From: Actinospica robiniae DSM 44927
GTDB taxonomy: Bacteria > Actinomycetota > Actinomycetes > Streptomycetales > Catenulisporaceae
Length of the DNA: 64,000 nt
Reading direction: 5' to 3'
NCBI RefSeq assembly: GCF_000504285.1
Contig: NZ_KI632511.1
Span: 4,895,372 to 4,959,371, forward strand
Below are positions 44,894-48,382 of the stretch, one piece after another. Both the position numbers and the translations under genes were made by a program. Every line of letters starts with the position of its first letter. The first letter of the stretch is position 1. The notes below the pieces were generated by a model, which ran no database searches, was not told the origin of the DNA, and saw only the letters and a list, made by a program, of their open reading frames with translations.

Positions 44894-45217
44894 ATGGGGG
44901 ACTCGTTCACCGCCGATCCGTCGGCGATAACCCAGCTCGGAGCACAGTTCACGGACCAGGCGCAGGGGCTGTCCTCGTCGGCGTCCGGGTACAGCGGGTC
45001 GGCGTTCTCGATCGGCGAGGCGTTCGGGCTGCTCGGCGCCTGCGACGGGGCGCTGTCGAAATACCTGTCGATGCTCAAGAACACCATGAACGGCCTGGAC
45101 CAGCTGGCCGAGGTCTGGGGGCAGACCGGGCAGCAGCTGCAGGCCACGGCGCGCAACTATCAAGACGTGGACGCGGGGTGCGCACAGAGCATCTCCGAGG
45201 CCGGGGGTGCGGAGTGA
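44894..45217 (+). CDS. EspC/WXG100-like type VII secretion substrate
   Basis: 107 residues from ATG 44894 (GAGGCC upstream; the frame is open to 44735 but without signal). Helical hairpin composition with the ending VWGQTGQQLQATARNYQDVDAGCAQ, typical of EspC/DUF2580 and WXG100 proteins secreted by ESX systems. A canonical central WxG is not evident. TAGAGT at ~44852 could be its promoter. It overlaps the next gene by GTGA, so the two are translated together and probably exported as a pair. No ESX machinery gene is in the window. Confidence 0.82.
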   Translation: MGDSFTADPSAITQLGAQFTDQAQGLSSSASGYSGSAFSIGEAFGLLGACDGALSKYLSMLKNTMNGLDQLAEVWGQTGQQLQATARNYQDVDAGCAQSISEAGGAE

Positions 45218-46308
45218 ATATCAACGCTGACGTGGTCAAGGTCCTGGAGGCGATGGGGCTCCCGCTGCCGGGGGGCGACGGGGACACGCTCAGGTCCATC
45301 GCGCAGGACTGGGACGACCTGGCCGACAAGGTCGACCGGCAGGTGGACGAACTCGACTCCGCGGTGAAGACGGTGGGGCCGAGCGAGTGGGCCGGCTCCG
45401 CGGCCGACGCGTTCCACCAGCACTGGCAGCAGCAGGCTGATTCGACCCGCAAGGGCGTGGCCAACTTCCACGACGTGGCCAAGTCGATGTGCTCCTACGC
45501 CACCAACATCGACTCGATCAACGAGGAGCTCGTCAGCATCTGCGAGCAGATCGTGATCGCGACGGCGGCCGGCGCGCTGCTGACCGTCGTCACGGCTGGG
45601 CTGTCCGACCTCGCGTCGGCGATCGCGGACTCGGCCGAGGCGGCTCGGATCGTGGCCCTGATCGCCAAGTTCGCCGATCTCGCCGAGCAGGTGGGCGTGG
45701 ACATCGACCGGGTGGCCGAAGTGCTCGGCGAGGTTATGGAGAATCTCAAGTCTCTGTCCGAGACGCTGAAGCTGGGCGACGTGGCCTCGAACGTGGCCGC
45801 GGACACGACGGCCAACGTGGCCTCGCAGGCACTGTCCGGGCAGAAGGTCACCTGGGGTGCGGACCTCGAGAACGGCGTGCTCGACGGCGTCGGCACGGTC
45901 GGTGCCTCGGCGGTTCTGGGCAAGGTCGCGCCGGGCCTGATGACCGGAGCAGGCGGTGCCACGACGGCGCTCAACGACGGGGTGAGCAACTTCGTCGGCG
46001 GCGTCTTCCAGTCCGAGGTCGGCGGTGTCGCCGGCGTGAAGGGCGACGTCGCGTACCAACTGCCGACTTCGGGGGCGGCGCTGTCCGCGGACGGCCAGAA
46101 CCTCGAGGGCGCGTTGGCCGACGGGCTCGGCGGTGTCGCGGCTCATGGCGCGGCGCACCCGACGGCGAAGAGCACCGGCGTCTTCACCATCACCGACACC
46201 CTCGGCGGCATGACCACCTCGTCGGAGACCTCGGCCACCGGGCTCAAGCAGACGCTCAACTCGCTCGACGGTCCGGACGGCGCGATGCCGGTCGCCGGCG
46301 GGAACTGA
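45214..46308 (+). CDS. WXG100-domain protein with long C-terminal region
   Basis: 364 residues from GTG 45214. Residues ~15-100 form a WXG100-type helical hairpin containing PSEWAGSAADAFHQHWQQQ. Residues ~105-150 are hydrophobic (IVIATAAGALLTVVTAGLSDLASA) and may insert in a membrane. The remaining ~210 residues are Ala/Gly/Thr-rich (GQKVTWGADLENGVLDGVGTVGAS), the scaffold seen in large ESX substrates such as polymorphic-toxin carriers, but I find no toxin domain or catalytic motif at the end. The stop is 18 bases before the composite repeat element. Confidence 0.8.
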   Translation: MNINADVVKVLEAMGLPLPGGDGDTLRSIAQDWDDLADKVDRQVDELDSAVKTVGPSEWAGSAADAFHQHWQQQADSTRKGVANFHDVAKSMCSYATNIDSINEELVSICEQIVIATAAGALLTVVTAGLSDLASAIADSAEAARIVALIAKFADLAEQVGVDIDRVAEVLGEVMENLKSLSETLKLGDVASNVAADTTANVASQALSGQKVTWGADLENGVLDGVGTVGASAVLGKVAPGLMTGAGGATTALNDGVSNFVGGVFQSEVGGVAGVKGDVAYQLPTSGAALSADGQNLEGALADGLGGVAAHGAAHPTAKSTGVFTITDTLGGMTTSSETSATGLKQTLNSLDGPDGAMPVAGGN

Positions 46309-46326
46309 TTGCTTAGCGCCTAGAGC

Positions 46327-46823
46327 AATTTAATGATCGACTGAGCGCTCGTGGGGCGTGGTGACTTTTCGGGTCCGGGGTGGTGGTCGTGGTGTGGGCG
46401 GCCGCTTCGCGCCGCCCGGTTCTTCTGTCCACCCGCCCACCCGTTGCGTTGGTGGGGTGGGCTGGGGTTTCAAGATCTCGCCTCCGGCGGGGGCCTTCCC
46501 TCGGAGAGAGATGCCGGGTTCGTGTGGGTGCTGTCGTTGGCGGGGCGGGCTGACGTTGGGGGTGGTGGGGTTGCGGGGGCGTGCTCTCTCCTCGGTCGGT
46601 CCCCGGAGGCAATCAGGGACCTGCCGGGAGGTCAAGCGGCGGAGGCTTCCGCTGGTGGTGGATTTTGCATCGCGCCGCTTGACCTCCCGGCAGAACCCTA
46701 ATCGGGCTTCGCCTGCCCGACCGAGGAGAGAACCCACCCCCTGAGGGTCCGGTGCGAGCTGCGCTCAGGCCGGGTCCCATCCCGCGGCCCGGCCGCGCTC
46801 GGTGCGGAAGGATTCTGCATCGC
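46327..46823 (+). repeat. Left arm of the composite element (about 497 bp)
   Basis: Reads nearly the same as the reverse complement of 47449-47938, about 85% by eye with small indels. Shared blocks include gatcg..tgagcgct, tgggcggccgcttcgc, cccgttgcgttgg, cgttggcggggcggg, ggtcccatcccg and an end of gcggaaggattctgcat. The block 46561-46760 is the best conserved. It starts 19 bases after the WXG100 stop. Confidence 0.9.
46586..46730 (+). repeat. Nested hairpin in left arm
   Basis: Base stem ctctcctcggtcgg (46586-46599) pairs with 46717-46730 (14 bp). The apical stem, 21 perfect bp, is 46621-46641 with 46673-46693 (starts ctgccgggaggtcaagc). The 31-nt loop holds ggattttgcatcg. The 21/23-nt internal parts are also partly complementary. 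Confidence 0.9.
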
Positions 46824-47260
46824 CCTGATCCGAGCATCCCGGTCCTCGATCCGCGCGAGCGAGTCCCGTGGTCCGGCTGTGCTTGGTGCTGAATCCTGCA
46901 CGACTGGATCCGATCCATCCCGATCCCAGACCTCGCGGAGGAATCCCGCAGGCTGGCGCCCGATCCGGAAGAATTCTGCATCACTCTCATCCGGCCATCC
47001 CGATGCCCGATCCGCTCGAAGGGGTCGGTGGCCCGGTCGCGCTTGCTGCTGAATCGTGCATCGCCGTGGTCCGATCCACCCCGAATTCCAGATCTCGCTG
47101 CAGAACCCCACAGGCTGGCTGGCCGGGTTCGGTGCGGAAGGATTCTGCATCACCGTGGGCCGATCCATCCGGCGCTCATGCGAAGCGCACGATCGCGTGG
47201 CTCGGTCGCACGCCGAGGGGAAATCCTGCACCGTCTTCGGCCACACCCCTAACGCCACCT
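46803..47260. repeat. Degenerate 80-bp tandem array of alternating A and B units
   Basis: The motif gattctgcat or a variant (gaatcctgca, gaattctgca, gaatcgtgca, aaatcctgca) starts at 46811, 46891, 46971, 47051, 47141 and 47221: steps of 80, 80, 80, 90 and 80 bp. Units 1, 3 and 5 (gcggaag, later gtgg-ccgg) resemble each other; units 2 and 4 (tgctgaat, ccgatccaycccga, acaggctggc) resemble each other. So the real unit is a dimer of about 160-170 bp. Confidence 0.8.
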
Positions 47261-47448
47261 GACCAGCCATCGCGTCCACCACCCCTCCCGTCACAAGTCC
47301 CGATCCCCCGTACGTTTCCATGCTAGACGCCACCGCCGACAAAAACCGCGTATCCGGCTTTCATCAGATAAAGAAAATTCCGGCCGTTAAGGGGAACTCG
47401 TGCGTGCTCCCCGGCGTTGAAAAACTAGAGAGAAGAGCGGTCCAGAAC

Positions 47449-47938
47449 GGCGATGCAGGATTCTTCCGCATCGAGCGCGACCGGGCTACGGGATGGGACT
47501 CGGCCCGAGCGCAGCTCACACCGGACCCTCAGGGGGTGGGTTCTCTCCTCGGTCGGGCAGGCGAACCCCGGTCAGGGTTCTGCCGGGAGGTCAAGCGGCG
47601 CGATGCAAGATCCAGCATCAACGGAAACGACCGCCGCTTGAGCTCCCGGCAGGTCCCTGGTTGCCTCCGGGGACCGACCGAGGAGAGAGCACGCCCCCGC
47701 TACCCCACCACCCCGAACCACAGCCCGCCCCGCCAACGACAACAACCACGCAACCCCGGCACTCTCCGAGAGAAGGGCCCCCCGCCGGAGGTGAAAGCTT
47801 GAAACCTCAGCCCACCCCGCCAACGCAACGGGTGGGCAGGCGGTCAGAAGGAACAGGGCGACGCGAAGCGGCCGCCCACACCCCGACCCGACACGTCATC
47901 CCACGCCCCACCAGCGCTCAACCGATCATCAAATCGCA
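47449..47938 (-). repeat. Right arm of the composite element (about 490 bp)
   Basis: Inverted copy of 46327-46823. On the minus strand it begins 7 bases after the stop of the 145-residue gene (47945) and ends with a single A-type unit start (gcggaagaatcctgcat), after which similarity stops. Confidence 0.9.
47543..47687 (-). repeat. Nested hairpin in right arm
   Basis: Same design and same 145-nt length as the left one: base stem 47543-47556 with 47674-47687; apical stem 47580-47600 with 47632-47652 (one mismatch in 21). The loop differs in sequence but keeps ggatcttgcatcg on the minus strand. Confidence 0.9.
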
Positions 47939-47944
47939 ATAATG

Positions 47945-48382
47945 TTACCCCGCCGCCGATTCGGCGAACGTCCAACGGACTCGGTGGGCGGGCACGCGTC
48001 CGATCTTGGACCGGTTCCGGTCCAGGCGCCATTCCGGTGTGGCGATCAGCGCGTCGGCCGGGGACCGTCGCGAGTTCCGTTCCAGCACACGCGCATCGAC
48101 TTCGGCCAGGTGTGCGGGAAGCCGCTCGACGGGAGGCCCGGTGACTTGGGCCCGCGCGAGCCGCTCGAGACGGTCCCGCCAGAGCTCCAGCTCCTCGGCA
48201 AGCTCGCCCTCTGATATCGGCCAGAGTTCGTACCGCGCGGGGTAGTCGTCGAGCTCGGCCGAGAAATTGCATTCGAAATAATGCGGGCGACCGCCGATCA
48301 GGGCGACGCCGGTGCGCGGGCAATCCCACCACGCCCCGTAGCACACGATCTCGTCGAAACCGTCCTGCTCCGCATCCGTCAT
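47945..48382 (-). CDS. Conserved-type hypothetical protein
   Basis: 145 residues from ATG 48382. The start, IVCYGAWWDCPRTGVALIGGRPHYFECNFSAELDDYPARYELWPI, resembles a widespread uncharacterised bacterial family built as DGPR-G-A---G-PH-Y---F---DDY---L-P-, also seen in cyanobacteria; I know no function. The rest is helical and Arg-rich. It lies 17 bases downstream of the WD40 gene stop on the same strand, so it is probably the last gene of the ABC-WD40 operon. Confidence 0.7.
   Translation of the reverse strand: MTDAEQDGFDEIVCYGAWWDCPRTGVALIGGRPHYFECNFSAELDDYPARYELWPISEGELAEELELWRDRLERLARAQVTGPPVERLPAHLAEVDARVLERNSRRSPADALIATPEWRLDRNRSKIGRVPAHRVRWTFAESAAG

Follow-up and report, generated by a model that had tools for sequence, protein, structure and literature searches.

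A hairpin-armed repeat family in Actinospica robiniae with probable links to a DUF222-HNH nuclease

The feature described here lies in a 64,000-nt stretch of the Actinospica robiniae DSM 44927 genome (hereafter the window) and is a mobile-element insertion. It is probably a non-autonomous, gene-less copy belonging to a system that resembles REPIN/RAYT, in which a DUF222-HNH nuclease serves as the cognate enzyme. That the HNH protein is itself the mobilising enzyme is an evenly balanced proposition.

The whole element is a compact copy of 1617 bp (46323..47939, no strand assigned) that was delimited by its arm ends and TA boundaries. Inverted arms were located at 46320-46824 and 47449-47942, which together form one 1.6-kb element. 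The main pairing joins 46512-46824 to 47449-47761 (313 nt, 90%) and continues outward through 46415-46520/47752-47857, 46385-46422/47851-47888, and 46325-46361/47901-47937. The two inverted arms of ~490 bp that a preliminary description had reported are thus real, with coordinates agreeing to a few bases. The left arm (46323..46824, plus strand) carries an A-type end, GA-GCAATTTAATGATC, and the right arm (47449..47939, minus strand) carries a B-type end that reads TT-GCGATTTGATGATC inwards. While accurate for the arms, that description omitted the ~145-nt conserved hairpin in each of them (left, 46586..46730, plus strand, from covariation and folds; right, 47543..47687, minus strand, from repeat comparison and covariation), the ~80-bp tail repeats (GGAAGGATTCTGCATC...; 46795..47195, plus strand, repeat families D1, D3, and D4), and a truncated gene start on the minus strand (47252..47464), which is a remnant of a DUF222-HNH promoter region and first codons with 69% identity to intact copies. 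The element is flanked by a WXG100-like gene (45178..46308, plus strand), which ends 12 bp before the boundary and is conserved in the relative G001, and by a 145-aa open reading frame (47945..48382, minus strand) that gave no match in a Pfam search.

Approximately 90 copies of the element family are present in the host genome, which comprises 9.92 Mb in one contig. A BLAST search with the arm against this genome returned 40 scored copies, mostly near full length and at 86-91% identity. Allowing up to three mismatches, a conserved 32-nt arm core was found at 87 forward and 89 reverse positions (176 genome sites), and the reversed pattern of the same 32-mer, used as a control, was found at none in either orientation. 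The preliminary description had proposed that the arms represent a genomic family of structured repeats, unless no second copy existed elsewhere; the scored copies settle the latter point, and together with the core sites and the hairpin covariation given below they bear out the proposal. About 80 genome regions were retrieved piecewise and mapped for arms. At every mapped locus with both arms their order was plus and then minus, that is, long terminal inverted repeats, and some loci, being interrupted by IS, gave just a single long arm piece. Compact copies measure ~1.3-1.6 kb, and their arm-to-arm gaps cluster near 370, 450, and 535 bp because the number of ~80-bp tail repeats varies between copies; longer copies hold a DUF222-HNH gene, IS, or both between the arms. 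Loci retrieved later through terminal-motif matches belong to the same family. Among the retrieved copies, the 5-8 Mb portion of the genome is sparsely occupied.

No DNA similar to the element was found in plasmid and phage collections, an IMG/VR pattern search gave zero matches, and in Rfam no described RNA family fits (one sub-threshold match). Arm matches in the draft relatives G001 and G002 lie mostly at contig ends. The outer-arm motif CCCGCCCACCCGTTGCG...TTTCAAG also occurs in relatives G004, G001, and G002 (L033, L042, and L045), including another genus of the family, and at these loci the hairpin core was without match. The start of contig G000:C1 (L051) has a truncated family arm within ~85 bases, and a break induced by the repeat may explain this contig end.

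Arm cores of families A, C, and D (defined below by their nuclease genes) and of two relatives retain one long hairpin. In total, 96% of cells were paired, a measure that is favoured by the structure having been drawn by eye on the same sequences. Pairs changed on both sides numbered 15 vs 1-4 in slid controls, the covariation score was 0.161 vs ≤ 0.049 when slid, and single-strand folds of the hairpin gave z values of -6 to -9. These comparisons show, for the aligned arms, compensatory changes that preserve the hairpin. A cloverleaf fold of the arm was also considered and rejected, given that minimum-energy folds produce one long imperfect hairpin instead.

The recurrent non-IS gene between the arms encodes a DUF222-HNH protein (“13E12” family). 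Family A comprises eight copies that share 88-100% identity, and IS have split three of these; families B, C (a pair of almost identical copies), D, and E lie further away. Arms flank genes of family A (up to 571 bp at 83-85%) and of three diverged families, B, C (347 bp at 98% and 375 bp at 93%), and D (305 bp at 98%); none were found when arms were looked for at the family-E locus. A gene-bearing copy with arms was also present in a relative of the same genus (G002, presumably A. acidithermotolerans). Judged by substitution rates, with dN/dS of 0.12-0.21 among intact copies, the family-A genes show purifying selection. The HNH residues are invariant across a 10-protein alignment, and comparison with solved structures gave just weak matches to HNH domains.

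The window copy is collinear with the DUF222-HNH gene across its promoter region and first part and then diverges, and for this reason it was classed as a deletion derivative; its descent from a DUF222-HNH element is very probable. The preliminary label of “non-coding” consequently suits the window copy itself, which nevertheless derives by deletion from a protein-coding element. Dozens of compact copies have an interior in common with the window copy; the deletion derivative has therefore itself multiplied, which implies mobilisation in trans.

That the element is an insertion follows from relatives that lack it at the window locus and at two other loci. In G001, the WXG100-like gene is separated from the next conserved gene by 36 bp with no element; the open reading frame at 47945-48382 is likewise missing, so this site alone cannot separate the histories of the two. 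For the two other copies, the joined flanks minus the element align over their full length with G001 (81-82%) and G002 (70%). In one of these, the A. robiniae gene terminates at the element boundary, and the relatives have their stop codon at the identical position.

Both ends read TA-NN-GCGA-TTTGATGATCGGCTGAGTG, where NN is mostly GA, AC, or GC at one end and CT, TT, or TC at the other; by eye, A/B end type was not correlated with interior orientation. The base outside the left end is C and that outside the right end is G, giving CTA at the expected position in 29/42 copies and TAG in 24/42. In 25/42 copies both of the expected positions carry TA, and the intergenic bases of relatives are strongly diverged. 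The simplest reading of these junctions is a putative target duplication consisting of TA in CTAG. The preliminary remark that no terminal target duplication was visible is only partly right, the expected duplication being just TA. At the window locus, the presumed duplication is the TA at 46321..46322 (plus strand, within CTAG) and at 47940..47941 (plus strand, within TAAT). Across the retrieved sequence CTAG is strongly depleted, with 308 occurrences vs the 2038 that base composition would predict.

IS630/Tc1-mariner or IS5/IS427-like transposases typically duplicate a TA within CTAG. This target and the PF13358 genes present in the genome would fit a long-inverted-repeat MITE moved in trans by such a TA-target transposase, whose own copy would be lost or located elsewhere, with DUF222-HNH as passenger or helper. 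We regard this as rather unlikely, given that each of several diverged DUF222-HNH families is enclosed by arms of its own, that no transposase recurs between the arms other than separate IS at fixed arm positions, and that the element's terminal motif is missing from 5/5 PF13358 loci. With the element ends absent from these loci, the IS630 genes were rejected as an autonomous partner.

Fifteen flanking genes have their stop codon exactly at the element boundary (distance -4). Based upon home-made gene calls, copies are flanked by convergent genes in 31 cases, tandem in 26, and divergent in four, and background gene pairs are convergent in 75, divergent in 63, and tandem in 219. Element sides face gene 3' sides in 88 instances vs 5' sides in 34. 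Such placement, together with hairpin covariation, could suggest a host-useful structured element at gene 3' ends, for example a bidirectional terminator or a 3' UTR between convergent genes. This explanation is very improbable, however, as orthologous sites of relatives lack the element, gene remnants and transposon-like ends are present, and a CTAG/stop-codon target combined with selection against promoter hits would give the same position bias.

IS110, IS4, IS30, IS256, IS701-like, IS1182, and IS3 elements were found in arms or interiors. One IS110 (L243-L252) has 10 full or nearly full copies, all in an arm broken at q115/116; IS701-like copies lie at arm q358-362, IS30 at q336-339, and IS4-like at q370-384. 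Positions of IS701-like, IS30, IS4-like, and IS256 within arms are mostly fixed per IS family (L061, L062, L063, L069, L072, L104, L106, L120, L121, and L126 in G000). One repeat thus acts as a landing pad for several IS families. Among these, the IS110 uses a single arm position, a very specific target that is attractive for bridge-RNA work. Since the IS break the arms at defined positions, they arrived later than the element. Although copies of seven IS kinds (IS110 to IS3) sit inside arms or interiors, a composite transposon built by a resident IS family can be practically dismissed, because IS-free compact copies have identical termini and interior.

Under the preferred, REPIN/RAYT-like reading, the full element would consist of a DUF222-HNH endonuclease gene enclosed by a pair of long inverted arms, with a ~145-nt hairpin in each arm, and would insert at CTAG-like sites with duplication of TA. 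The DUF222-HNH protein may recognise the arms and cut element ends, targets, or both, and gene-bearing and gene-less copies would both spread in trans, as is thought for RAYT with REPINs. Surviving copies would be mostly those that lie downstream of a gene, in several cases precisely within its stop codon, which the A-type end would restore, and they would subsequently collect IS. Counting against this reading are the arm-less family-E gene, the 69% identity between the remaining gene region of compact copies and present gene-bearing copies, the arm-less loci of other genera, and IS interruption, which hides part of the copies.

DUF222-HNH genes were present in 143/198 sampled genomes of the class, often at ≥ 10 per genome. 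In other genera, 59 DUF222/HNH loci were checked and long arms were not found: flanking inverted repeats were found at 0/30 DUF222 loci, and 28/29 HNH loci, which include little upstream sequence, were without them. At the exception (L222), inverted REP-like palindromes lie to either side of the gene. In the genus of L222, that of G307 and G363, a REP-like palindrome, CTTTCGACAAGCTCAAG, occurs within ~600 bp of 6/9 DUF222-HNH genes (L276, L277, L279, L281, L282, and L289). Counted from listed positions, there are ~15 in 10.8 kb of flank, and the sampled background of 240 kb holds 16, including two at one of the nine genes. This corresponds to a ~20-fold higher density that is a lead only, having been found after choosing the one positive locus. 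It is possible, and offered tentatively, that DUF222-HNH proteins are a mobilising-enzyme class apart from DDE, HUH, serine, and tyrosine recombinases, which would spread itself and hairpin-armed or REP-like satellites in Actinobacteria. DNA mobilisation by DUF222-HNH becomes a directly testable hypothesis, and this common family gains a testable role, for which hairpin arms are the candidate substrate and CTAG/stop codons the candidate target, alongside satellites and presence/absence sites.

Within the open-access literature, inverted arms accompanying DUF222-HNH were found nowhere described; an earlier description elsewhere is possible. In Mycobacterium tuberculosis, REP13E12 (first described by Gordon et al. 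1999, as cited in PMC10589994) is characterised as repetitive, gene-converting, and lacking defined function (PMC13061034), and likewise involves multi-copy DUF222-HNH genes in recombination-prone repeats. Compared by description only, the long inverted hairpin arms and gene-less satellites are an Actinospica feature absent from the REP13E12 descriptions consulted. HNH homing endonuclease elements resemble the Actinospica element in that the non-IS gene which recurs as cargo encodes an HNH nuclease, but allelic homing does not explain copies at many non-homologous sites. MITEs of the IS630/Tc1-mariner type are similar in being non-coding deletion derivatives with inverted ends and, putatively, in the TA in CTAG; they differ in that no DDE transposase with the Actinospica ends was found at the five PF13358 loci and in the ~500-bp arms with a conserved hairpin. 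REPIN/RAYT (TnpA-REP) systems are described as numerous extragenic palindromes with few palindrome-bracketed nuclease genes and repeat-targeting IS (PMC3116915, PMC8266576, PMC8450116), and Actinospica likewise has dispersed extragenic palindromes, few bracketed nuclease genes, and repeat-targeting IS. ISPpu9 of Pseudomonas putida, which is described as inserting in REPs (PMC8450116), parallels the IS in the Actinospica arms. In contrast to short REPs, the Actinospica elements span 1.3-1.6 kb and have arms of ~500 bp, and their recurring gene is DUF222-HNH rather than the Y1 HUH enzyme (TnpA-REP). Because the enzyme differs, the system is regarded as working like REPIN/RAYT and is not filed as a member of it.
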